Assembly: GCF_018736105.1 (NCBI RefSeq)
Contig: NZ_CP076135.1
Location: 4,462,001 to 4,526,000 of the forward strand
Direction of reading: 5' to 3'
From: Bradyrhizobium sediminis
Lineage (GTDB): Bacteria; Pseudomonadota; Alphaproteobacteria; Rhizobiales; Xanthobacteraceae
Length of the DNA: 64,000 nucleotides
A program made the position numbers and the translations under genes. Below are positions 24,378 through 36,706 of this stretch, one piece after another (within the stretch, counting starts at the first letter, position 1; the number at the start of each line of letters is the position of its first letter). The notes beneath the pieces were generated by a model, which had not been told where the DNA came from, ran no database searches, and saw only the letters and a program-made list of their open reading frames with translations.

Positions 24378-26033
24378 TCACCCCGACGGGGTCATGACGA
24401 CGCCCTTGTCCTTGGGCCAGCGCACGCGCCAGGCGAACGCGATGTCTTTCGCCTCGCCGGGCTTCGCTTCGTAAGCCCATTCGAGCACGCCGCGCTTGTC
24501 GCGTACATTGGTCGCGGTCGGCGGGGTCGTCGAGGGCAGCATTTCGACCTGGATCTCCTCGTTTTCGCTCACCGGCAACTGATCCTCGATCGCGATCCGG
24601 ATCGGGAAGTCGTGTCCGTTGCGCACGCTGGTCTTGAAGCTGCGCTCGTCGGTCTTCGACGTCGTCACGATCAGGCCGGCCGAGCCCTCGTTGCGCCTGA
24701 CCACGGAGCGTTCGATCTTGACCTTGTCGTCGGCGCCGAAGCCGAGCCGCACCGTTTCGTCCTTGCTTGCGGCGGCCATTTGACCGCGGCCGACGAACAC
24801 GCCGTCGCGATAAATCGCCACGCGCCCCGGCAGCAGCGGCGCGTCCTCGCCTTGCTTGAAGCTGGCCTCGAGAAACGCCGTGGGATCCCTGACCGGCACC
24901 GAACGCACCGCGAGAACCGGCGTAATGCTGGCGGTCGACACCCGCAGGCTCTTGGCGCCTTCATTGGCGCCCAGGCTGACGCGGCCGGGAATCCTGAACG
25001 TCACCTGAAAGCCGCCGACTTCCGCCGTCGCCTGCTGCTCTTCGGCGGCTTTTGCGCGCGCTTCGGCCGCCTGGGGCGCCGGCATCGCGCGCGGCCTGGC
25101 CATATCCGAGGAGACGCTGCCCGCGGCCAGCGGGCGTGGCACTTGCGGATACTGCACGATCAGCGAACCCAGCTCGGGCGCACTGCCGCCGCGCGCGGTC
25201 CGCACCGTCGAGACGGCCAGCGCGACGTTCGACCAATCCTCTCCCGTGGTCTGGGTGATCTCGGCGCGGCGCACCAGCTCGAGCGCGGGCTTGCGGTCCT
25301 TTGCGCCGGTGTCGAGCCGGGCGTCGTAGATCGGCGCCCAGCGCGCGTTGCGCACGGCGTAGGTCACCCGCAGCATCGCCCTGGTCGCAGCGGCGGTAGC
25401 GACATCGATCCGGACCTCGAGCTTGCTCGGCGGCTTGGCCGCACGGTCGGATTCGAGCCGGGCGATCTCGCGGTCGATGTCGCGCTGCTTGCGTTCGGCG
25501 TCGCGGATCGCGGTGTCCGCGCTGGCGACTTCCTCCGCGACCGCCGCAAAGGCGGCGCGCCACTCGGAAATCGGACGCGCCTCACCCTTCTCGCCGAGCC
25601 CGGCGGGAGAGGCCTCCGCAAAGCGCTCGGCAAATTTGCGGCGCGCGGCGGCCGCATTGATCGCACCTGCGAGGTTGGCGCGCTCGTCCTTGAGCGCTTC
25701 GATGCGCTTGTCGAGTTCCGGCAGATTGACCGGCGGCGCCGCGCGCGGCGGCCTGGTGTCGATGGCGCCGATCGTAAGCTTCGCGCCGGCTTCACCCTCG
25801 ACCCGCAGCGAGGACGGATCCAGCGTTAGCGGAAAATCCTTCGCCACCAGGGTGTGGTCGCCGGCCGGCATATCCAGCGTCATGACGCGCATGATGCTGG
25901 CGCCGTCGGGATAGACCGTGACGGCATCGACGGCAGAGCTGGCGTCGATATCGGCCGCCCTCGCCTCCATGGCGGCAAAGGCCGTAACCGCGACCAGGCT
26001 GGTCGTGACGAGGATGTTGGCAATCGTTGGCAT
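24378..26033 (-). CDS. MuiA-family (DUF4139/DUF4140) exported protein
   Basis: 551 aa with an N-terminal signal peptide (ends near MEARAADID). The DUF4140 domain (about 30-130) has VDAVTVYPDGASIMRVMTLDMPAGDHTLVAKDFPLTLDPSSLRVEG. A helical coiled-coil-rich segment (about 90-200) is followed by the DUF4139 domain with VTYAVRNARWAPIYDARLDTG, EITQTTGEDWSNVALAVSTV and a C-terminal VEMLPSTTPPTATNVRDKRGVLEWAYEAKPGEAKDIAFAWRVRWPKD. Named after a mucoidy inhibitor, the biochemical function is unknown. The ATG at 26033 is preferred since the longer reading precedes the signal peptide. Confidence 0.88.
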   Translation of the reverse strand: MPTIANILVTTSLVAVTAFAAMEARAADIDASSAVDAVTVYPDGASIMRVMTLDMPAGDHTLVAKDFPLTLDPSSLRVEGEAGAKLTIGAIDTRPPRAAPPVNLPELDKRIEALKDERANLAGAINAAAARRKFAERFAEASPAGLGEKGEARPISEWRAAFAAVAEEVASADTAIRDAERKQRDIDREIARLESDRAAKPPSKLEVRIDVATAAATRAMLRVTYAVRNARWAPIYDARLDTGAKDRKPALELVRRAEITQTTGEDWSNVALAVSTVRTARGGSAPELGSLIVQYPQVPRPLAAGSVSSDMARPRAMPAPQAAEARAKAAEEQQATAEVGGFQVTFRIPGRVSLGANEGAKSLRVSTASITPVLAVRSVPVRDPTAFLEASFKQGEDAPLLPGRVAIYRDGVFVGRGQMAAASKDETVRLGFGADDKVKIERSVVRRNEGSAGLIVTTSKTDERSFKTSVRNGHDFPIRIAIEDQLPVSENEEIQVEMLPSTTPPTATNVRDKRGVLEWAYEAKPGEAKDIAFAWRVRWPKDKGVVMTPSG

Positions 26034-26507
26034 GAATTCCCTCCCGCAAATCTGGCGCGCGACCACCCTGCCCCTGTCCAGCGGCGCCGGACGGGTCGAG
26101 GTCACATCACCGCATGTGATGAGACGCGGCGACGAAGGAACCGGTTCGATTGAGGTAACCGTAAGGCGGCGTCGGGGCGGCGTCAGGGCCAGAGGATGCG
26201 GTTCGCGCTTTCCGAAGAATTTCTGCAGCGCAGTGGGACGGCCTGCCGAGATGACCGAGCCCGTCGAAAGCATTAGCACCGATGATCCGGCACCTACCCC
26301 GATGCGCATTCGTCATGGCGCCGTTCGATGCTAGGCTTCTTTTCTCCAAGAGACGATAAATTTTCTCTCCATCAACTCAGCTTCGGCGAACAGCCCCCCA
26401 CCGAAAGCGCCCCGGCCACAGTCCCCCCTGTCACCGGGGCGTCTGTTTGCGATCAGTCCGGCCATTTCCAACGGCTGCAAACCTGAAGAGACAGCATGAA
26501 TTCACCT
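26034..26507. other. Intergenic region, no gene recognised
   Basis: 474 bp between the MuiA-family gene start and the LuxR-type regulator end. Short open frames on both strands show no recognisable protein. The stretch around 26340-26400 is comparatively A/T- and pyrimidine-rich. Confidence 0.6.
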
Positions 26508-27419
26508 CTAATGACGAGGTTCCGAAGATTTGACCAGCGTCAGTGGATCCTGGGGAACGAGTTCAGCCTCGGAATCCGGGATGATGCAGTTGAGGCTGGC
26601 AGCAATGGCTACCTGCGTACGGTTGCTTACGCCCAACTTGCGCATGATCTCCCGGACATGGACCTTCACGGTCGTTTCCGTCATTCCGAGCTTGCGACCG
26701 ATAACCTTGTTGGGATCACCACGGCAGAGACAAGAAAGCACCGCCTGCTGCCGCACCGTCAATTCGGGCCTGGAGATGGCGTCGTCGCACTGGATACTCG
26801 CGAAACGGTCGCCGGGCTGGACGAGTGCCCTCTCATCAAAGAGTGAACCCTGCTGTTGGAAGAGGCTTACCGGTTGTCCTCCGGCCGGCGTGTGACCTAG
26901 TTGCTCGGAACCCGGAGGCGGTTGCCCATGCGACGTGTCCGGGGAAGAATGCTGATGAGTGTATTCGACCATCGGCGCTCCGTTGGCCACATGAGCGGCC
27001 AGTATGGCAGGCGGGAAGTAGGTACCTCCGTGCAGAACGAATGAAAGCGCCTGCAGTGCGAGAGCCGGCACCATGGAATTGGTGAAGTAACCCTGGGCTC
27101 CGCAATTGATCGCGGAGATAACGCTTACCGGGCTTTCATCGTCGGAGAGGATCACCAGCGCAGCCTCTCGACGGAGGGTATGCAGCACCTGCAACTCGGC
27201 GAGCATTTCGTGAATGGAGGCAGCCGTGCCGACATTGTAAATCAGCATGTCGCACTCGATGTGCTCGACGAGCTTCGTGTGCGCTTCCTCGGGCTGCAGA
27301 GAAATCAGCTCAACATTCTCTTCCTTGGCCCAGGGACCCAGGAAGCTCTCCATCACCGCCCTTCGAAAGGGCATCGCATCAATAACGATAACTGTCTTCT
27401 TGGATGGTGGGACTAACAT
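26508..27419 (-). CDS. LuxR-family response-regulator-like transcription factor with degenerate receiver
   Basis: 303 aa. Residues 9-130 look like a receiver domain, but the expected phosphoacceptor Asp is N62 (CDMLIYNVG) and the acidic pair is reduced to D14. Phosphorylation is therefore unlikely. A Pro/Gln/His-rich linker (about 150-215) leads to a LuxR helix-turn-helix (about 215-275): LTVRQQAVLSCLCRGDPNKVIGRKLGMTETTVKVHVREIMRKLGVSNRTQVA. It is divergent from the secretion-associated genes beginning at 27762, a natural candidate to regulate them (inference). Confidence 0.85.
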   Translation of the reverse strand: MLVPPSKKTVIVIDAMPFRRAVMESFLGPWAKEENVELISLQPEEAHTKLVEHIECDMLIYNVGTAASIHEMLAELQVLHTLRREAALVILSDDESPVSVISAINCGAQGYFTNSMVPALALQALSFVLHGGTYFPPAILAAHVANGAPMVEYTHQHSSPDTSHGQPPPGSEQLGHTPAGGQPVSLFQQQGSLFDERALVQPGDRFASIQCDDAISRPELTVRQQAVLSCLCRGDPNKVIGRKLGMTETTVKVHVREIMRKLGVSNRTQVAIAASLNCIIPDSEAELVPQDPLTLVKSSEPRH

Positions 27420-27761
27420 AACGCGCCCCCGACTCTGTTTTTATATTAAAGTATTTTCAACAGGATCTTTCCGAGACGACCAAGGCTGCGCTTGAATTAC
27501 GCTGTCGGCAACCAAAGGGACCAAAGGGGTTGCTCCTGTGCCAATAGAGACAATCTTAGTATAATAAGCAATTAGTTGCCAACAAATTCCGGGTTCCATC
27601 GGACTGGCGGTCGTTGCGCGTAAGCAGGATGCGGGCGTTATTGTCACTCTCTAGATGCAACGTCGCTCTAGACAACCTCTGTAATGTATCTTTCGATATA
27701 TACTTCCTCGTAGGCGAACCAGTTACAATTAATACTAGGCTGCCCAGCGGACAAGAACGCG
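27420..27761. other. AT-rich divergent intergenic region
   Basis: 342 bp between the LuxR-type regulator and the 192-aa protein gene, clearly richer in A and T than the surroundings (for example around 27440-27470, 27550-27590 and 27680-27740). It should carry the divergent promoters, but I cannot fix -35/-10 elements with confidence. Base composition suggests acquired DNA or an extended regulatory region. Confidence 0.6.
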
Positions 27762-28340
27762 ATGTTTGTCAGCAAGCTACCGCCAAAACCGGACTTCGAC
27801 CTGCTGGCCGCCGCCGCTCCGGCTTCGGCGGACCGCCGTACTTTCGTACTCGCCCTGATCGGAAACCTGATCTGCAGCTGGTCGAACAACGAAAGTCTCT
27901 TCATCTATGTCCTGATGATTTTGCTGCGGACCGACGAGGCCTCCGCCGCCGTCGTGTTCGCCACCTTGAACACGACCCGCGCGAGGCTCGACCTGATCCA
28001 GCGGATGGCCAAGATCAGAGTCACGGACAAGGCTCTCGCCAGGAACCTGACGGCTCTCGTCGAGCGCTTCGGAGAACTGACAAAGGTCCGCAACGAGCTC
28101 AATCATTGCATGTTCATCTACGATGCCTCAGGCGCCATCACCCACACCCAGTCGATGCGGCTGGTGGAAACGAAGTCCAGCCTCAGGTTCGGCGAGATAA
28201 AGGCGCTGGACGACAGCCGCCTGCAGGACATGCTCAAGACCACGAACGAAATGACGAAGATCAACCGCGACATCTGGGATCTGCTGCCGCGGCTTGAAGC
28301 ACATGTCTGCGACACGCAGCCGCAGCGACAGTTGGCGTAG
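27762..28340 (+). CDS. Hypothetical protein with an HEPN-like R-x4-H motif
   Basis: 192 aa, predicted mostly helical with no signal peptide. Visible segments: RRTFVLALIGNLICSWSNNESLFIYVLMILLRTDEASAAVVFATLNTTRARLDLI and LTALVERFGELTKVRNELNHCMF. R110-NELN-H115 fits the R-x4-6-H pattern of HEPN domains, which include RNases and non-catalytic dimers. The match is by motif only. Similar proteins occur in Rhizobiales as hypotheticals as far as I recall. It is the first plus-strand gene of the secretion locus, with 310 bp before the next. Confidence 0.6.
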   Translation: MFVSKLPPKPDFDLLAAAAPASADRRTFVLALIGNLICSWSNNESLFIYVLMILLRTDEASAAVVFATLNTTRARLDLIQRMAKIRVTDKALARNLTALVERFGELTKVRNELNHCMFIYDASGAITHTQSMRLVETKSSLRFGEIKALDDSRLQDMLKTTNEMTKINRDIWDLLPRLEAHVCDTQPQRQLA

Positions 28341-28650
28341 GCCCGAAGCAGACAGCCATACAGCGGCGACGCCGCCGTCATCTCGATCCCCCAACCGAAT
28401 GCCAGGCCTATCGAATGCGCCAACCGGAACGTCGATCGGCTGATATCGCAAGATATCGCGGCTGACCGGATGCATCCATGTTGCGAACGCGTCCGTTGCG
28501 CGATGTTGCGCCGCCGGCGTTCGCAATAAGGCGGATGCGGGCAGTCGGAGGAACCGACGTTCAAGAGCACCGCCGCGCTTCGAAGATCGCAGACACAGAA
28601 GATCAGCGATCTCGTTTCGTCCTGCGATGCTCCAACCACAGGAGCCCGCC
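28341..28650. other. Intergenic region upstream of the Q/G-repeat gene
   Basis: 310 bp without a recognisable gene. It should contain the promoter of the 28651 gene. I see no confident promoter or operator. Confidence 0.5.
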
Positions 28651-29475
28651 ATGAGTGGCAGGTCACACCGGAGACACGACCAGGACCAAGACCAGAAGCA
28701 AGACCAGATCCAAGCCAATCTTCAGGGCCAGTTGCAGGGCCAGGGTCAGTTGCAGGGCCAGGGTCAAGGCCAAGGCCAGGGTCAGGGCCAGTACCAGACC
28801 GCTGTGCAGTCGCTGGATTCCAGCAGCAGCAATGACAACTGGAATGCCAACGGCAACCTGAACGGCAATGGCAACCTTAACGGCAACCTGAACTTCAACG
28901 ACAACAAGAACGAGAACCAGGTCGACAACAAGCTCGACAACAAGGTCGAAAACGGCGTCGACAACAAGGTCGACAACAGCGTCGACAACAAGATCGAAAA
29001 CACCATCGACAACAAGGTCAACGTCGATGTGGATGTGAAGGTCGACCTCGACCTGAGCGCCGACGGCCTGAGCAGTCCCGTGATCGATCTTCATGGACTG
29101 ACACACATCAACGACTCGCTGATCATGCCCGACGTGGTGACCCAGACCATGGGGAACGGCAACCAGTTCAATATCGATCAGGTGAACAACCTGGTTGACA
29201 ACGACACCCTGTACGATCCGAAGGTATCGTTCGGCGGCTGGGATGTGGAATTCCACATGGATGCCAAGGCCGAGGGCGGCGACTCCAAGGTCGACTCCAA
29301 GATGGGAGACGTTGTCGGTGCCGCGGCCAGCGGTGTGGCGTCACATGCCGACGCATCGCTGACACAGGAGGCGTTCAACCAGACCATCACCCAGGGTGCG
29401 AACATCCAGTTCAACAGCATCACGATACAAGCTGCAGGCCACGATCTTGCGGATGACCATTCACTGGGCAGCTAG
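28651..29475 (+). CDS. Low-complexity protein of Q/G, N/G and VDNK-type repeats
   Basis: 274 aa, no recognisable domain. Residues 11-49 are nearly all Q, G, D and L, ending in six GQ pairs. Residues 63-90 are N/G-rich (NGNLNGNGNLNGNL). Residues 91-122 are eight tetrapeptides of the form (V/L/I)(D/E)N(K/G/S/T). Residues 123-137 alternate V/L with D (VNVDVDVKVDLDL). The rest is less repetitive, with NQFNIDQVNNLVDNDTLYD resembling the repeats of the next protein. There is no Sec signal. It is probably a type I secretion substrate given the transporter downstream (inference). GGAG precedes the chosen ATG. Confidence 0.75.
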   Translation: MSGRSHRRHDQDQDQKQDQIQANLQGQLQGQGQLQGQGQGQGQGQGQYQTAVQSLDSSSSNDNWNANGNLNGNGNLNGNLNFNDNKNENQVDNKLDNKVENGVDNKVDNSVDNKIENTIDNKVNVDVDVKVDLDLSADGLSSPVIDLHGLTHINDSLIMPDVVTQTMGNGNQFNIDQVNNLVDNDTLYDPKVSFGGWDVEFHMDAKAEGGDSKVDSKMGDVVGAAASGVASHADASLTQEAFNQTITQGANIQFNSITIQAAGHDLADDHSLGS

Positions 29476-29486
29476 TCACGCGCTTT

Positions 29487-29516
29487 GCCCGCGCGGCATC
29501 CGCCGCGCGGGCTTCC
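29487..29516 (+). terminator. Hairpin after the Q/G-repeat gene
   Basis: An 11-bp perfect stem, GCCCGCGCGGC and GCCGCGCGGGC, around ATCC, followed by TTCCTCC, 12 bp after the stop codon. It probably attenuates transcription between the 274-aa gene and the 645-aa repeat gene. Confidence 0.65.
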
Positions 29517-29622
29517 TCCGTCAACCCGCTTCATCGCTTGGTTTCACCACTGCCGCCGCAATTTGCCAATGAGAAGCTGGATGGCCGATGCATGGCCATA
29601 ATGGCTCAGAGGAGGGTCTCCC

Positions 29623-31560
29623 ATGGCGTCAGCGAGCTTCGTCGAAGTCATCTCGCACTTTGCAGGGTACCTCCAGATCTTTCATGATATCGCCCGCGAC
29701 CGAGTCCACTACGATGAGAGCCTCGCGCCCCGTCCGCCGGACGACTACATCACCCTACGACCCGATTACGATCATCCCTTCACGCCCGATGACCTGGAAA
29801 CCAGAGTGGGCCCGGCGCCTGACCTGATCCCGGACGACCCCGCTCATTTCAACCGCATCCATTCGATCAGGTCTTTGAGCGATACGCCGGATCTCGATCT
29901 CGGTTTCTTTCCGCCTTCACGGGGACCGAACATCCAACTTCCGACATCCGCCGGCGGCGGCGGATCGAGCGGCGTCGACTTTCATATCAAGGTGGAATAC
30001 CAGCCCGGCGGTGAGCAAAGCCAGGTCGAGGTTCATCAACGCAACATTCTCCATGACGACGATACTCTTCTGCAGCTCAACGGCGGGCTTGCTCCGAGCG
30101 ATCTGACCTTGAGTCTCGCGACGAACATCGCCGCGACGATCGAACGGATGGCGGACGCTGCCAACGGCGAGATCCCGCAGGAATGGTGGATCCCGCAAAA
30201 TGGAACCGGCGCGACCGACTTTCTGACCGCCCATGACGCAGACTGGGCGGCGAACGGCGGAACACCGGACGCGCATTCGGTGCAGCCCGGCTACTACCTC
30301 AATGGCGTGTTGCAGGACCCGGCCCCGATCGCCCCGGACCAGACACTGATAGTCGAGCCGGCGCCTTTGCCGGATACGGGCCAGGGTCTCGGGCAATGGG
30401 CCGTCCTCGGCAACAACAGCAGCCTGAACGCGGCGCTGATTATCGATCTTGGCGAGTCCGGCCGCACCATGATCGTCAATGGCGACTATTTCCACACCGA
30501 TGCGATCTTTCAGACCAACACGATTGTTGACCACGATCACATCAACGTTTCCGATGGTCCGACGCCGCTCGCGGCCACCGGTGACGACGTGACGACCAAC
30601 ATCGCCGACTTCGTGCAGCATCCCGGCGTCTACGCTTCGATCCAAGCGACGTTCGCCGGACCGCATTGGAACGTCGACGTGGTGGACGGCAACTATTACA
30701 ACGTCCACGTCCTGCTTCAGACCAATTACCTGTTCGACAACGACGTCGTGGTTCAGTCCAGTGCGGACACGCACTACGACCTGGTGGACGGCCACAATCA
30801 GCTCGGCAACCTCGCACAGCTATTCAACGGCGAGATTCACTATGACCTGATTGTCATCGAAGGCGCCTACCACGGCATGAATGTCATCTTCCAGAATAAT
30901 CTGTTGCTCAACAACGACCAGATCCACGTGGCCGCGGACGGCGCCGATCCGACGCAGTCGGTCGAATCCGGGCAGAACAACCTTCTCAACGACGCGACGA
31001 TCGAGAATTACGGCGGAGACAATTTCGGCGAGATGACCGACGGGATGAAGGCCATCCTCAGCGCGCTGGAAGCCGGAGCAACGTCGCTCGACCCGAGTCT
31101 TGGCACCGCGGTGGACGGATCCGGCGGCGTATTCAATGTGCTGTACGTCACGGGTGACTATTACGACATCAACGCTGTGTGGCAGACCAATGTCATATCC
31201 GACGTCAACGTGATCTATCAGTTGCAGAACCAGCCGTCGTCCAGCGCACTGACATATTTCCCCGACGGACCCGGGACCCAGTCGGTGACAACCGGCAGCA
31301 ACAGTCTGGTCAATGATGCCGCGATCATCGATGTCGGCCCGACCAACACCTACGTCACCGGTCAGGTCTACACCGATACGATTCTGGTGCAGGCCAATCT
31401 TCTGCCATCGGATCAGGATCAGGCGGTGAACGCCGATACCCAGGCACTGATTCCCGAACTGATCGCCTTCGTCGACGACAGCCAGGACGATACCTGCACG
31501 ACCCCCGCCACGATCCCCGCTTCGGTGCAAGCAGATCCGATCGCGAGCGTACTGCAATAG
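29623..31560 (+). CDS. Large repeat protein, probable type I secretion substrate
   Basis: 645 aa, acidic, no signal peptide, one cysteine near the C-terminus. Five degenerate copies of (V/I)-x-G-x-Y-x4-(I/V)-x2-Q-(T/N)-N-x-L-x2-(N/D)-D lie at about 285-305, 354-374, 412-432, 509-529 and 578-598. A second motif, G-x-N-x-L-x-N-x-A-x-I, precedes several at 263, 390, 450 and 558. A Gly-rich hinge is at 110-117. The N/D/G-rich composition and lack of a Sec signal fit a secreted repeat scaffold. No GGxGxDxxx nonapeptides are seen. Its gene is 49 bp upstream of the ABC transporter gene. Confidence 0.75.
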   Translation: MASASFVEVISHFAGYLQIFHDIARDRVHYDESLAPRPPDDYITLRPDYDHPFTPDDLETRVGPAPDLIPDDPAHFNRIHSIRSLSDTPDLDLGFFPPSRGPNIQLPTSAGGGGSSGVDFHIKVEYQPGGEQSQVEVHQRNILHDDDTLLQLNGGLAPSDLTLSLATNIAATIERMADAANGEIPQEWWIPQNGTGATDFLTAHDADWAANGGTPDAHSVQPGYYLNGVLQDPAPIAPDQTLIVEPAPLPDTGQGLGQWAVLGNNSSLNAALIIDLGESGRTMIVNGDYFHTDAIFQTNTIVDHDHINVSDGPTPLAATGDDVTTNIADFVQHPGVYASIQATFAGPHWNVDVVDGNYYNVHVLLQTNYLFDNDVVVQSSADTHYDLVDGHNQLGNLAQLFNGEIHYDLIVIEGAYHGMNVIFQNNLLLNNDQIHVAADGADPTQSVESGQNNLLNDATIENYGGDNFGEMTDGMKAILSALEAGATSLDPSLGTAVDGSGGVFNVLYVTGDYYDINAVWQTNVISDVNVIYQLQNQPSSSALTYFPDGPGTQSVTTGSNSLVNDAAIIDVGPTNTYVTGQVYTDTILVQANLLPSDQDQAVNADTQALIPELIAFVDDSQDDTCTTPATIPASVQADPIASVLQ

Positions 31561-31609
31561 ACGCAAGGACAGGGTTCCGCTTGATTGTCATCGGTAGTGG
31601 AGTTTCGAA

Positions 31610-33709
31610 ATGTCGCTGGGCGGGGACGATCGTTTGAACGGCGGCGGCAGTTCGCATCCAATTCCACCCGGCGAAGGGACTCCGAGGACGGCCAAGATCA
31701 TTCCGCTTCGGACGGTGCCTGATGCATCTGCGATGCCGGCTGACGATTCCCCCGTCAAATTTGCGGACGAGGAAGCGCCTCAGGCCAAAGCCAAAATCAC
31801 TGATCCGCCGGTCGAACCGGCGCAGCGGGAGGAAGCAAAGACCCCGGCGCCGGGATCCACCGTCTTGATCGAGCAGCCCGCTACTCCTCCGCCGTCGACC
31901 GGCCACGGCGACGGGGGCGGCGGCGGAGCCTCCGGCGGCGGCGGAGGAGGTGGCGGCACGCCGCCGCTGCACAAGAAATCCCGCGACCATGAATTCCGGG
32001 ATGTGCTCGGCAAGGGCCTTTCGAAAGCACGCCGCAGCCTGGTGACCGTGGGAATCTTCTCGATTGCGGTCAACCTGCTGGTGCTCGCAATTCCGATCTA
32101 CCTGTTCAATATGTCCGATCGCGTGCTGACCAGCCGCAGCACCGACACGCTGGTGATGCTGACCATAATCGTCATCATTGCGATCGCGGCGCATGTGCTG
32201 ATGGACATGATGCGCCGCATCATCCTGATGCGCGTTGCGGTCGAGACCGAGGCGAGATTGGGGGGCCCCGTGCTGAGCGCCGCCGCCAAGGCCGCACAAG
32301 GCGGATCCAGCCGGGAATTCCAGACGTTGGCGGACCTGCAGCATCTGCGGTCATTCATCACCGGTCCGGTATTGCTGACAATGTTCGATACGCCGGTTTC
32401 GCCGGTCTACTTTGCCGTGGTGTTTCTCATTCATCCGCATCTCGGGTTCATCGTGCTGTCGACCGGCGCTGCCCTCGTCGCGGTGGCGCTGTTGAACCAG
32501 CGGGTGACCGCGGTGCCGTTCACCCAGGCCAACAACTACGGCACCAGGGCAAACCTGCAGGCGGAATCGATGGCCCGCAATGCCCAGGTCATCAACGCCA
32601 TGGGAATGATTCCGGAAGGCGTCCAGGTCTGGGGCCGCGAAACGGTCGAGTCCCTGAAGGCGCAGGTGATCGGCCAGGACCGCAACATCCTGATGACGGG
32701 GCTGTCGAAGTTCCTGCGGCTGTGCACCCAGATCGCCATCCTCGGATGGGGGGCATGGCTGGCGCTGGAAGGCCAAATGACCAGCGGCATGGTCATTGCG
32801 GCTTCGATCGTCGCAAGCCGGGCGCTGTCGCCACTGGAAGGGACCATCGAAGGCTGGCGCAGCTTCGTCCAGGCGCGTTCGGCCTATGCCCGGGTCAAGA
32901 CCCTGCTGCTGAACTCGCCGCTCAATATGGAGCGGCTGCGGTTGCCGCGGCCGGCTGGATATCTCAACGTCGAGCGGATTCTCTACGTGCCGCCGCCGAA
33001 CAAGAAGGTAATCCTGAACGGAATCAGCTTTCAGCTGAAGCCCGGGGAATCGCTCGCCATTGTCGGGGATTCCGGAACCGGGAAAACCATGCTGGCGCGC
33101 ATGCTGGTCGGATCCATCATCCCGACCGCCGGCAGCGTAAGGCTCGACATGATGGATCTGCGCAACTGGGACCCACGACAATTCGGCGAGAGCGTCGGTT
33201 ACCTGCCGCAGGATGTGCAATTGTTCCCCGCATCGATCAAGGCCAACATCGGCCGGATGCGCGAGGATGCCCGCGACGAGGACGTCTTCGACGCGGCGGA
33301 GACCGCCGACGTGCACGAGATGATCTCGGGCTTTGCACAAGGCTATGAGACCATCGTCGGCATGGACGGCAGTCCGTTGTCCGGCGGCCAGCGGCAGCGG
33401 ATCGGGCTGGCGCGCGCGTTCTACGGCAACCCGCGCCTGATCGTGCTCGACGAGCCAAACTCGAATCTGGATGCGAATGGCGAGCGGGCGCTCGCAAAGG
33501 CTTTGCTGCGCGCCAAGGAAAAGAAGATGACGGTGGTCACGATCACCCAGCGCGCCGCACTGCTGCAGAGCGTCGACAAAATCATGATTCTGCATCAGGG
33601 AGCGGTGCAGGCATTCGGCACCCGCGACGAGATCATTCCAATCATCACCGGGCGCAAGCCGACGAACATCCCGGGCGGGCCCGGCGATCCCCCGCCACTG
33701 GATTCGTAG
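31610..33709 (+). CDS. Type I secretion ABC transporter (PrtD/HlyB-like permease-ATPase)
   Basis: 699 aa. The N-terminal 125 residues are low complexity (Pro/Glu/Ala, then a Gly run near 98-115) and are absent from ordinary PrtD proteins. The membrane domain (about 145-400) starts with FSIAVNLLVLAIPIYLFNMSDRVLTSRS, typical of PrtD. The ATPase has Walker A GDSGTGKT, signature LSGGQRQRIGLARAFYGNPRLIVLDEPNSNLD and an H-loop reading TITQRAALL, where Q647 replaces the usual His. It would energise export through an adaptor and an outer-membrane channel. The channel (TolC) gene is not in this window. Confidence 0.9.
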   Translation: MSLGGDDRLNGGGSSHPIPPGEGTPRTAKIIPLRTVPDASAMPADDSPVKFADEEAPQAKAKITDPPVEPAQREEAKTPAPGSTVLIEQPATPPPSTGHGDGGGGGASGGGGGGGGTPPLHKKSRDHEFRDVLGKGLSKARRSLVTVGIFSIAVNLLVLAIPIYLFNMSDRVLTSRSTDTLVMLTIIVIIAIAAHVLMDMMRRIILMRVAVETEARLGGPVLSAAAKAAQGGSSREFQTLADLQHLRSFITGPVLLTMFDTPVSPVYFAVVFLIHPHLGFIVLSTGAALVAVALLNQRVTAVPFTQANNYGTRANLQAESMARNAQVINAMGMIPEGVQVWGRETVESLKAQVIGQDRNILMTGLSKFLRLCTQIAILGWGAWLALEGQMTSGMVIAASIVASRALSPLEGTIEGWRSFVQARSAYARVKTLLLNSPLNMERLRLPRPAGYLNVERILYVPPPNKKVILNGISFQLKPGESLAIVGDSGTGKTMLARMLVGSIIPTAGSVRLDMMDLRNWDPRQFGESVGYLPQDVQLFPASIKANIGRMREDARDEDVFDAAETADVHEMISGFAQGYETIVGMDGSPLSGGQRQRIGLARAFYGNPRLIVLDEPNSNLDANGERALAKALLRAKEKKMTVVTITQRAALLQSVDKIMILHQGAVQAFGTRDEIIPIITGRKPTNIPGGPGDPPPLDS

Positions 33710-33740
33710 CGGCCGCAGACGGAAGGGAACGAGGCGCGCC

Positions 33741-35105
33741 ATGGCCAACAGGAAAATTGCAGTCCGAACCGCGGCAGCAGACGGCACCTGGTACGATACG
33801 CTGCCGCGATCGACGAAATTTCCGACTATCGCCGGCATGCTGGTCATGGCCGCAGTGCTGATGGGGTTCGGCGTCTGGGGCAACATGGCGCCGATCGCGG
33901 GCGCAGTGGTCGCGTCCGGCGTGTTCGTCGCCACCGGGCAGAACAAGATCATCCAGCATTTCGAAGGCGGCGTGATCCGCGAGATCTATGTACGCGAAGG
34001 CGACATCGTCGAGCCGGGCCAGATCCTGCTCGAGCTTGATGAGACCTCCGCTCGAGCGGAATTGCAGCGTCTGTTTCTGCGTCGCATCAGGTTGTCGGCC
34101 ATCGATGCAAGGCTGCAGGCCGAAATGAGGGAAGAGCCGGAAATCACGTTTCCGTCGGAAGTCGCCAATGCGCCGGCGAATTCGCCCGAGGTGAAGGAAA
34201 TCATCGACAGTCAGAAGATGACGTTCACGGCGCGCCGCAACAATATGAACAGCGACATCAAGAGCATCAATGAGAGCATCAGGGCGCTGGAGGAACGGGT
34301 CCAGGGATCGCGCGTTCAACTGGACGCGGTCAAGCGCCAGATCGTCCTGCTCGACGAGGAAATCGAAACCAAGGATCGTCTGGTGCAGGCCGGGCTTGTA
34401 CGCAAGCCGGAACTGATGGTGCTGCAGAGGTCGAAAGCCAACCTGGAAGGCGAAGTCGGCCGCATCATGGGCGACATCGGCGACGCCAAGGAACGGATCG
34501 CCCGTGCCTTCGAGCAGATCAACGGCGTGCGCAAGACGGCGATCAAGGCCGCGGTCGAGCAAATGCACGAGGTGCGGGGCGAGCTGGCCGACGTCCGCGA
34601 GCGGATGCTGAGCGCCAAGGGCGTGCTCGATCGGGTCCGCATCACCGCGCCGGTCAGCGGCGTCGTGGTGAAGCTGCGTTACCACACCCGGGGCGGAGTG
34701 GTGGAGGCTGGCAAGAACATCATGGAGCTGTTGCCGCTGAAGGACGAGCTGATCATCGAGGCCCGGTTGCGGCCGCAAGACATCGACAGCGTCAAGCGCG
34801 GGCACAAGGCGATGGTGCGACTGACGGCCCTCAACCAGCGCATCTCGCCCATGGTTTCTGGGGACGTGATCTATCTGTCGGCCGACACGCTGGCCGACGA
34901 AAAGAAGTCGCAGCAGGTCGGACCGACCGACATCTACCTCGTCCGCGTCAAACTCAACAACGAGGAAGCCATGGCGCTTCCCGACTTCAGTCCCACTCCC
35001 GGCATGCCGGCCGAGGTCTACATCAAGACGTCGGAACGCACGTTCTTCCAGTACATCGTCAGGCCCATCCACGACAGCATGTCGAGGGCATTCAGGGAGC
35101 GCTAG
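33741..35105 (+). CDS. HlyD-family type I secretion membrane-fusion protein
   Basis: 454 aa. A single N-terminal transmembrane helix (about 28-50, MLVMAAVLMGFGVWG), a biotinyl-lipoyl half (IIQHFEGGVIREIYVREGDIVEPGQILLELDET), a long coiled coil (about 100-300), the second lipoyl half (VRITAPVSGVVVKLRYHTRGGVVEAGKNIMELLPL), and a beta-barrel ending SERTFFQYIVRPIHDSMSRAFRER, the standard C-terminus of HlyD/PrtE adaptors. It starts 31 bp after the ABC gene in the same operon and links the ABC transporter to an outer-membrane channel. Confidence 0.93.
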   Translation: MANRKIAVRTAAADGTWYDTLPRSTKFPTIAGMLVMAAVLMGFGVWGNMAPIAGAVVASGVFVATGQNKIIQHFEGGVIREIYVREGDIVEPGQILLELDETSARAELQRLFLRRIRLSAIDARLQAEMREEPEITFPSEVANAPANSPEVKEIIDSQKMTFTARRNNMNSDIKSINESIRALEERVQGSRVQLDAVKRQIVLLDEEIETKDRLVQAGLVRKPELMVLQRSKANLEGEVGRIMGDIGDAKERIARAFEQINGVRKTAIKAAVEQMHEVRGELADVRERMLSAKGVLDRVRITAPVSGVVVKLRYHTRGGVVEAGKNIMELLPLKDELIIEARLRPQDIDSVKRGHKAMVRLTALNQRISPMVSGDVIYLSADTLADEKKSQQVGPTDIYLVRVKLNNEEAMALPDFSPTPGMPAEVYIKTSERTFFQYIVRPIHDSMSRAFRER

Positions 35106-35143
35106 GCAAGCAACCAGGCAGGCATTTCGGAAAGGCGTCAGCC

Positions 35144-36706
35144 GTGCATATCGACATCATCGAAACGTTGCCGTCGCTGGCCAGGCTCCAGGACAACTGG
35201 AACGCGGTCTACGATGCGGATCCCGAAGCCCAGATCTTCCTGTCATGGAAATGGCTTGGCGGATGGCTGGCTCACATCGAAGGCCCCTGGTTCATCCTGG
35301 CGGCAAGGGCCAGCGACGCCGCCGACGCCCCCTACGCTGCGTTCTTTCCCTTGCGGCTTCAGACCACGATCGAGAACGCCGACGTGCGCAGCGAGATCAG
35401 GATGGCCGGCAATTTTTCGGCCGACTACACCGGCATCGTCTGCACGCCGGAGACGGAGCACACGGTCATTCCCGCCTTTGCCCGATGCATCAAGCAGATG
35501 AACTGGGCACGCCTCAACCTCGAAAATGTCCGGATGTCGGAGCGACGCTTCCGGTTGCTCATGGCCTGTTTTCCGAAGGCCGGTTTTCAGATGACTGAGG
35601 TGGACAGGATCGCCAAGATCGACGGCATCGATAACAGTCTCTGCCCGTACGCAGCCTTGCCGGCGGACTGGAATTCCTATCTGGAGTCGCTGAGCACCAA
35701 TACGAGGCAGAAGATCCGCCGCCTCCTGAAAATGGTCAACGCGGGAGGTGAATACCGGATCACCGTTGCGACCCCCGAGACTTTCGCGCAGGACCTCAAA
35801 TCCCTGCTTCGGTTCTGGGAGATCAAATGGCGCCCCCGCAAGGGCACGATGACCGACAGCCTGGTTCGCTCCAACGGCAACATGCTGACGCGCAGTTTTC
35901 AGTCCGGGCTGGTATTCCTGCCGACCTTCTGGCAGGGCGACCGGCCGGTCGCGGCGCTGGCCACGCTGGTCGATCCGCGCAAGCGGACCTTCTCCTTCTA
36001 CATGGCCGGACGCGACGAGACCTTCGATGGGCCGCCGCCGGGAATGATCCTGCATGCCTTCAGCATCCGGCACGCGATCGAGAACGGCTTTGCCGAGTAC
36101 GATTTCCTGCGCGGCAACGAACCCTACAAATATTCGTTCCATTGTACGGAGCGCAAGATTCGCTGTACCGTGGTCGAGACAAGGAACGGCAGGAATCTCG
36201 GCAACAGGATCGACCTGCGAAGCATTCCCGACGTGCTGGAGCAAGCGACCGACCTTCACAAGAAGGGACAGACCGCCGACGCGGAATGCGGCTACCGGCG
36301 GATTCTGGAGGTCCAGCCAAGGCATGCCGACGCGCTGCACCGGCTGGGCCAGTTGCTGACCGCGAAGGGCGACCTGGCTTCGGCCAAGAAGCTATTCCGC
36401 ACCTTGACGACGGTCCGCCCCGAAGCCGCCAAGGCGTGGCTGTGCCTGGGCCAGGCCTGCGAAGGGCTCGGCCAGCATCAGGAAGCGCTCTACCACTATC
36501 TCGAGTTCATGCGGCTGCAGCCGAACCTTCCGGACGGGTTCGTCGGCACGGCCAGGTGCCTGGTTAAACTCGGGCGGATTGCGGAAGTCAGCGCCGCGTT
36601 GCTGGCGACGATAGGACCAGCGCCCCGACCGGCGGTCAGGATTGGGCGCGACGGACCGGCCATAGCGCATGACAGGCCGGCGCAGGACGCCTCGGTCGCG
36701 CTGTAG
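35144..36706 (+). CDS. GNAT (CelD/BcsL-like) acetyltransferase fused to TPR repeats
   Basis: 520 aa. The N-terminal 350 residues resemble the CelD/BcsL GNAT family: FLSWKWLGGWLAHIEGPWFILAAR, SLSTNTRQKIRRLLKMV, FYMAGRDETFDGPPPGMILHAFSIRHAIENGFAEYDFLRGNEPYKYSF. Members occur in cellulose and exopolysaccharide loci. From about 360 to 470 the sequence turns into three or so TPR units (AECGYRRILEVQPRHADALHRLGQLL, and AKAWLCLGQACEGLGQHQEALYHY). It closes the secretion gene set, 38 bp after the adaptor. It might acylate the secreted proteins or a surface polysaccharide (inference). Confidence 0.8.
   Translation: MHIDIIETLPSLARLQDNWNAVYDADPEAQIFLSWKWLGGWLAHIEGPWFILAARASDAADAPYAAFFPLRLQTTIENADVRSEIRMAGNFSADYTGIVCTPETEHTVIPAFARCIKQMNWARLNLENVRMSERRFRLLMACFPKAGFQMTEVDRIAKIDGIDNSLCPYAALPADWNSYLESLSTNTRQKIRRLLKMVNAGGEYRITVATPETFAQDLKSLLRFWEIKWRPRKGTMTDSLVRSNGNMLTRSFQSGLVFLPTFWQGDRPVAALATLVDPRKRTFSFYMAGRDETFDGPPPGMILHAFSIRHAIENGFAEYDFLRGNEPYKYSFHCTERKIRCTVVETRNGRNLGNRIDLRSIPDVLEQATDLHKKGQTADAECGYRRILEVQPRHADALHRLGQLLTAKGDLASAKKLFRTLTTVRPEAAKAWLCLGQACEGLGQHQEALYHYLEFMRLQPNLPDGFVGTARCLVKLGRIAEVSAALLATIGPAPRPAVRIGRDGPAIAHDRPAQDASVAL

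Follow-up and report, generated by a model that had tools for sequence, protein, structure and literature searches.

What might a type I secretion locus export when neither of the repetitive proteins encoded beside its transporter carries the RTX (repeats-in-toxin) nonapeptide, and why should a HEPN-like protein be encoded among its genes? The question is raised by seven adjacent genes of Bradyrhizobium sediminis, within a 64,000-nucleotide stretch of DNA (here, the window) that covers positions 4462001-4526000 of the single contig of a 5.45 Mb genome (RefSeq assembly GCF_018736105.1). A preliminary description of the window had proposed these genes as a coherent type I secretion locus for non-RTX substrates, and each was found where that description placed it. 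Conservation supports the proposal. The locus is a genuine variant form of type I secretion, conserved between genomes and joined, unexpectedly, by a HEPN-like gene; export by the locus and its function are predicted. The core consists of five genes, encoding a PrtD-type ATP-binding cassette (ABC) transporter, an HlyD adaptor, two repetitive proteins that we call rep282 and rep645, and a protein with an R-x4-H motif. The features of the locus, in window coordinates, are as follows.

26508-27419, minus strand: LuxR-type regulator gene (GerE, 59 bits)
27762-28340, plus strand: gene for the HEPN-like (R-x4-H) protein, 192 amino acids; motif R110-x4-H115 coded at 28089-28106
28627-29475, plus strand: open reading frame of rep282, a Q/G/N/D protein and putative major substrate; probable start ATG 28651 (274 amino acids)
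29487-29512, plus strand: GC-rich stem-loop just 3' of rep282 (shuffles and covariation)
29623-31560, plus strand: rep645 (645 amino acids), an acidic beta-repeat protein and putative second substrate
31610-33709, plus strand: PrtD-type type I secretion permease/ATPase (TIGR01842, 698.9 bits)
33741-35105, plus strand: HlyD-type periplasmic adaptor (TIGR01843, 379.7 bits)
35144-36706, plus strand: GNAT (Acetyltransf_6) fused to TPR repeats (PF13480, 80.4 bits); optional member

Conservation and distribution of the locus

Recurrence of the gene set in other genomes, which the preliminary description had predicted, is borne out in ten families of the order and on plasmids. At family level, rep645 is present in 12 of 149 genomes (source genome counted) and 7 of 47 genera, and the genes for the HEPN-like protein, rep282, rep645, the ABC transporter and the adaptor are all kept in 11 of 11 other family loci; the GNAT-TPR gene accompanies them in 10 of the 11, one copy having been relocated beside the HEPN-like gene. 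Profile searches of the order recovered rep645 in 27 of 297 genomes (17 of 122 genera), with 24 strong matches that span the ten families. Outside the order rep645 is rare in the class samples taken, being present in 2 of 337 genomes with profile A2, one of them the source genome, and in 2 of 270 with profile A4. Within the genus of one positive genome, G388, it occurs in 10 of 39 genomes. Named genomes with related loci belong to Bradyrhizobium, Afipia, Nitrobacter, Blastochloris and Microvirga, together with a few metagenome-assembled genomes, and rep645 homologues were also found in Rhizobium leguminosarum strains and Agrobacterium.

The gene profiles were applied to a further 50 loci, of which half (25) come from named genomes and the other 25 from genome G621 and the order searches. 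Most carry the same gene set, and the distant ones show altered order and strand. Overall, 60 of 61 loci contain rep645; of these 60, 56 also have the HEPN-like gene, 49 a rep282 gene recognised by its profile, and 37 GNAT-TPR. Six of the 60 are repeats of a region present in two collections (L013/L025, L015/L039, L018/L045, L019/L041, L020/L042 and L023/L047); their removal leaves 50, 43 and 31 of 54 loci, respectively. The four loci without a HEPN-like gene either begin near a contig end (L046, L092) or have only weak rep645 matches (L099, L100), and five without a rep282 profile match (L093, L094, L096, L097, L101) nonetheless encode an Asn/Asp-rich protein that clusters with rep282. In L098 (G621), which lies outside the order, two rep282-like genes stand in tandem.

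Plasmids extend this picture. Thirty plasmid records matched, including rep645 matches in Paracoccus and Sulfitobacter, and all seven plasmid loci examined—from Paracoccus, Ensifer, Shinella, Rhizobium and Neorhizobium—carry HEPN-like, rep645, ABC and HlyD genes, the last two by annotation in L145. In that locus (a plasmid of Shinella sp. PSBB067) the cluster adjoins genes for a diguanylate cyclase, a polysaccharide tyrosine autokinase and a UTP-glucose-1-phosphate uridylyltransferase, and the gene in the place of rep282 carries the annotation 'fibrinogen-binding protein'. The copy on a plasmid of Rhizobium sp. RCAM05350 (L144) looks broken or poorly sequenced, its ABC and HlyD genes being split over several frames.

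The HEPN-like partner

The near-invariant non-transport partner of the locus is the HEPN-like protein, a feature that the preliminary description had missed. Among the 297 order genomes, strong matches to rep645 (E below 1e-40) occur in 24, to the HEPN-like protein (E below 1e-60) in 25, and to both in 24, only G434 having the HEPN-like protein alone; weak rep645 matches in G254, G407 and G429 and a weak HEPN-like match in G401 were left out of this count. The association is strong by Fisher's exact test (p 1.8e-34, a value that ignores relatedness), and its persistence over ten families despite strand changes is a stronger argument than the p-value: in 56 loci the HEPN-like and rep645 genes lie 1.1-6.9 kb apart, on the same strand in 38 and on opposite strands in 18. 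In G388 the two are on different contigs, with rep645 close to a contig start. Weak matches to the HEPN-like profile, at E 2.9e-24 to 8e-4, also turned up in six other genomes of the class; rep645 was not found in these six, and the matches were treated as distant superfamily relatives. Distant HEPN-like relatives stand in L133-L135 (G502, G514, G652), in genomes where the rep645 search found none.

What kind of protein is this? According to the available text of PMC3710099, HEPN domains carry an R-x4-6-H motif at the end of helix 3, with a polar residue after the R, and, in helix 2, an Ex3[KR] motif that supplies an acidic residue; Csx1 has a beta-hairpin after the R-x4-6-H motif. We call the protein HEPN-like because its motif, the polar residue, an acidic-x3-R element and its helical model match these features. 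An R-x4-6-H motif with a polar residue after the R is present: R-N-x3-H is invariant in 51 of 51 distinct HEPN-like sequences, the R, N and H also in the 31-row alignment A3, and a Paracoccus homologue reads RHRYNH at this site. D77 and R81, invariant in the same 31 rows, lie in helix 72-86 of the structure model; they supply the acidic residue of an Ex3[KR]-like motif in helix 2, with Asp for Glu (Glu in the Paracoccus homologue), if helix 72-86 equals helix 2, and in our reading of the model it probably is the counterpart of that helix. The model is helical and confident (predicted local distance difference test, pLDDT, 93.4); helix 90-114 ends at the motif and is followed by short strands and then by helix 151-184. 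The Csx1 profile of PADLOC, a collection that lists no cut-offs, matches 23 of 31 HEPN-like members (best E 9.2e-5), and in the window protein it aligns with residues 84-123, the motif site, at E 6.6e-4.

Several results weigh against a HEPN identity. The window protein exceeds no Pfam cut-off, structure searches with its model gave nothing significant, three distant members lack any PADLOC match (Csx1, 0 of 3), and the commonest weak Pfam match is WD40_alt, seen in 9 of 31 members as against 3 of 31 for HEPN_Cthe2314 (best E 0.011). A search of PDB sequences with the HEPN-like profile returned only two irrelevant rows (E 0.19 and 9.5), and a protein search returned 3144 matches, of which none among the 120 listed has a Pfam domain or a telling name. 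Because no curated family threshold was passed, the protein is named only 'HEPN-like'. It nevertheless has several features of RNase-type HEPN domains, and from these we infer that it may be an RNase. Some HEPN domains are non-catalytic.

On a Paracoccus plasmid (pFER4) and a Shinella plasmid the HEPN-like and regulator genes overlap; they share one strand and are transcribed away from the secretion genes. This arrangement on two plasmids suggests that the protein is a regulatory rather than a structural component. It also bears on the idea of the HEPN-like gene as a toxin or an element of defence, carried along with the cluster to secure its own maintenance. Such an element would fit the weak Csx1 matches of the 23 members and the essential part that HEPN domains play in many toxin-antitoxin, abortive-infection, restriction and CRISPR-Cas systems (PMC3710099, in the available text). 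We consider it unlikely, however: no gene of the cluster and no direct neighbour reads as an antitoxin or an MNT gene, the near-perfect tie is to one secretion locus in ten families of the order though the orientation changes, and in the two plasmid loci it is the regulator gene that is overlapped.

Transporter and putative substrates

Transporter and adaptor are clearly a type I pair of the PrtD/HlyD kind. The ABC protein scores 698.9 bits against the TIGR01842 cut-off of 510.15, which identifies it as PrtD-type, and the adaptor scores 379.7 bits against 208.65 for TIGR01843. An outer-membrane factor of TolC type (TIGR01844 cut-off passed) is encoded at three loci in the genome, none in the cluster. 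Two PrtD-type ABC genes exceed the cut-off in this genome, one of them in this locus; the second (G000:C1:5039124-5040755, minus strand) outscores the window ABC on TIGR01842. The intervals from rep645 to ABC, HlyD and GNAT-TPR are tight, at 49, 31 and 38 bp.

The two proteins encoded just upstream are acidic. The first, rep282, has a Gln/Gly region and then an Asn/Asp region of low complexity, followed by a conserved C-terminal module (IDQVNNLVDND; QTITQGANIQFN). It probably starts at ATG 28651, giving 274 amino acids, because AGGAG stands at 28640-28644 and because in several homologues the residues preceding the equivalent Met resemble a translated ribosome-binding site. The second, rep645, is an acidic beta-repeat protein with a conserved N-terminal helix and the C-terminus DPIASVLQ. 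Homologues of both have a median isoelectric point of about 4.05 and few Cys residues.

Neither protein is an RTX protein. The nonapeptide GGxGxDxUx is absent from both window proteins, as the preliminary description had noted, and from 24 of 24 rep282 and 33 of 36 rep645 proteins, the other three rep645 proteins having one match each; there are no RTX repeats. No Sec signals are evident at the N-termini of rep282 and rep645, judged by reading and not by a predictor. The preliminary description had further proposed that the two share Asn/Asp-rich repeats. What they have in common is better described as one 11-residue motif, [IVLFM]xQxNx[ILVMF]x[DN]x[DN]: it occurs in five copies in window rep645, in one copy in window rep282, and in no other window frame of 60 codons or more. 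Across families the motif totals 116 in 36 rep645 proteins (35 with at least one) versus 0.24 in shuffles, and a single copy occurs in 16 of 24 rep282 proteins versus 0.22 in shuffles. The pattern G-x9-Q-x-N occurs six times in rep645 (mean 0.22 and maximum 3 in 5000 shuffles). Profile comparison of rep282 with rep645 found only the motif stretch (25 columns, E 0.014, probability 3.1).

Searches for known families gave little. Pfam and NCBIfam produced only single-member weak matches for 36 rep645 proteins (best E 0.0041), and Pfam no match for 24 rep282 proteins at E<=0.01. A PDB sequence search with rep645 gave no match at E<=1, and Foldseek and VIA gave nothing significant, FapC, CsgA and SufB/D being listed at E 0.03 or worse. 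In the rep645 model residues 120-596 are mostly beta repeats at fair to good confidence, with pLDDT below 50 for the first 118 and last 50 residues. Since none of the structure matches was significant, it is the motif and the composition, and not the fold, on which the idea of an amyloid is based.

The shared motif also bears on a reading in which export is the same, with rep645 forming an adhesin or S-layer-like coat, rep282 serving as disordered filler or second adhesin, neither fibre nor nucleator being involved, and the HEPN-like protein acting as a non-catalytic adaptor or repressor like MtlR. We regard this as doubtful, since rep282 and rep645 have the Q-x-N...D-x-D motif in common, and since all 31 aligned HEPN-like proteins keep R-x4-H and acidic-x3-R unchanged, as would be expected of an active site.

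Are the repeat proteins exported at all? In 54 of 60 loci, and in 49 of the 54 distinct ones, rep645 closes with [DE]-x-h-x-x-h-[hT] and one further residue, the pattern having been written after the tails were seen; rep282 has no C-terminal pattern as clear. RTX substrates are described in the available text of PMC8861453 as enriched in D, L, T, V, I and F over the last 20 residues, with [FLI][VAI] at the last two, and the rep645 tails are alike in kind, not identical. It could be that the repeat proteins are cytoplasmic and the transporter exports something else, a reading that would sit with the conservation of the N-terminal helix of rep645 as well as its tail and with the predicted, not observed, status of export. 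It is the least probable reading we considered, since the rep282-rep645-ABC-HlyD order fits type I substrates, as do a composition that is acidic and poor in Cys and the conservation of the rep645 tail. Gene linkage, composition and the rep645 tail are the grounds on which rep282 and rep645 are regarded as putative type I substrates. A weapon, whether bacteriocin-like or dependent on contact, is a very unlikely role for the exported pair: rhizobial type I systems do export bacteriocins (PMC2275737, in the available text), but the ABC is of the PrtD type and the family searches with both proteins brought up only the weak, single-member matches already described for rep645 and none at E<=0.01 for rep282, no search aimed at an immunity gene having been made beyond the family searches of the cluster genes and their neighbours.

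Stem-loop, regulators and GNAT-TPR protein

A GC-rich hairpin lies about 4-37 nt past the rep282 stop codon in most loci. In 45 of 49 loci (39 of 43 once the repeats are removed) it is better than every one of 20 shuffles, the exceptions being L089, L090, L091 and L102. In 24 of the 49, five or more T stand in the 10 nt after it. In 36 distinct hairpins, left from 41 candidates after exclusion of L089, L091 and L102 (no stem) and of the near-duplicates L023 and L085, 95.2% of cells pair, a value biased upward since the hairpin was taken as the best of each stretch; in 7 of 11 pairs both partners vary, and shifting the partners lowers pairing to 28-53%. Rfam returned no family at its gathering score. 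The stem-loop fits a partial terminator, which would yield more rep282 than rep645 and transporter; a role in processing or mRNA stability is equally open.

The window regulator is a NarL/LuxR-type protein with a degenerate receiver-like N-terminal part. It has the LuxR helix-turn-helix (GerE, 59 bits), Response_reg is absent from its families listed at E<=1, and in 34 aligned regulators near such loci the phospho-Asp position is, by eye, not conserved. Just past its gene lies a MuiA-family (DUF4139/DUF4140) protein at 24378-26309 on the minus strand. In ten distant loci (L079-L082, L084-L088, L098) a gene for a short IS1595-type zinc-ribbon protein stands between the HEPN-like and secretion genes; three such proteins tested pass the Pfam cut-off, with no transposase domain listed in those three, and by its position the protein is a candidate regulator in the ten loci.

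The 'dedicated CelD-like GNAT' of the preliminary description stands as a domain (PF13480 at 80.4 bits versus a cut-off of 22, plus TPR), which is CelD-like and often linked; 'dedicated' holds only in part, the gene being optional, as the counts over the 60 loci indicate, and full-length in 9 of the 24 rep645-positive order genomes. A role of GNAT-TPR as an HlyC-like activator found no support, HlyC not being among its 23 families listed at E<=1.

A proposed mechanism

We lean, with modest confidence, towards a type I system for two-protein surface or matrix assembly under LuxR-type and HEPN-like control, with export, assembly and RNase activity all predicted. The LuxR-type regulator with its degenerate receiver would switch the operon on, a part the zinc-ribbon protein may take in the ten other loci. 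The putative substrates would then leave the cytoplasm unfolded through the PrtD-HlyD pair and an unlinked TolC-like protein, the conserved C-terminal tail of rep645 serving recognition, while the stem-loop would end or shorten some transcripts such that rep282 exceeds rep645 and transporter. Once outside, rep645 may fold as a beta-repeat rod and nucleate or anchor rep282 via the shared motif, giving a surface fibre or matrix. In the cytoplasm the HEPN-like protein could limit or tune operon RNA, for instance when export is blocked, and GNAT-TPR, where present, might conceivably modify a substrate or surface polysaccharide. Since Bradyrhizobium, Afipia, Nitrobacter, Blastochloris and Rhizobiaceae all have the cluster, they may plausibly have a surface or matrix structure in common.

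A bolder version is offered tentatively, as possible but improbable: a HEPN RNase would be an obligate control part that cuts operon RNA, perhaps at the stem-loop, unless export runs; production of an amyloid-like coat of two proteins would thus be tied to its secretion; and the cluster would be the missing substrate set of the orphan toaDE/tobDE-type systems of rhizobia.

Relation to known systems and implications

Curli (CsgA/CsgB) and Fap (FapB/FapC) each combine a low-complexity subunit with a related repeat protein bearing Q/N motifs, and both are exported through their own outer-membrane pores. Such subunit-nucleator pairs offer a works-like analogy for rep282 and rep645, which differ in their proposed type I export and in the lack of a significant structural match. 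A further comparison is with the PrtD/PrtE-type (PrsDE-like) systems of Proteobacteria, which the locus resembles in passing both TIGR01842 and TIGR01843, in its unlinked outer-membrane factor and in putative substrate genes placed just upstream; it differs in having no RTX substrates, two low-complexity or beta-repeat proteins instead, and a HEPN-like gene. With the HEPN superfamily (Csx1-like, MtlR) the likeness lies in R-x4-H, the polar residue after the R, acidic-x3-R and the helical model, and the difference in the absence of any curated threshold passed and in the tie to secretion rather than to defence or MNT genes.

Two orphan exporters merit particular mention. The available text of PMC2275737 describes toaDE (RL0072/RL0071) and tobDE (RL0623/RL0622) of R. 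leguminosarum 3841 as enigmatic PrsDE-like systems that lack both substrates and a mutant phenotype. They resemble the present locus in their PrsDE-like ABC and adaptor, no substrate of theirs is known, and rep645 homologues are present in R. leguminosarum strains and Agrobacterium; the cluster may be the same system as these orphans reported in 2008, which is a lead rather than a result. In UniProt several homologues of rep645 bear the name 'Type I secretion protein' (in B. valentinum, B. lablabi and R. rhizogenes, for example), an automatic annotation that gives the link as a name only, the entries seen stating no substrate role, partners or function. The terms 'type I secretion' and 'HlyD' are absent from the main text of the HEPN review PMC3710099, and nothing among the matches listed in open-licence literature describes the cluster or pairs a HEPN protein with type I secretion, which does not prove absence from print. 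To that extent the earlier view of an undescribed system holds.

If the proposal is right, type I secretion would gain a substrate class without RTX repeats, and the HEPN-like family a testable role outside defence. For rhizobial biology, it would supply candidate substrates for type I exporters that have been called 'enigmatic' (PMC2275737, in the available text).

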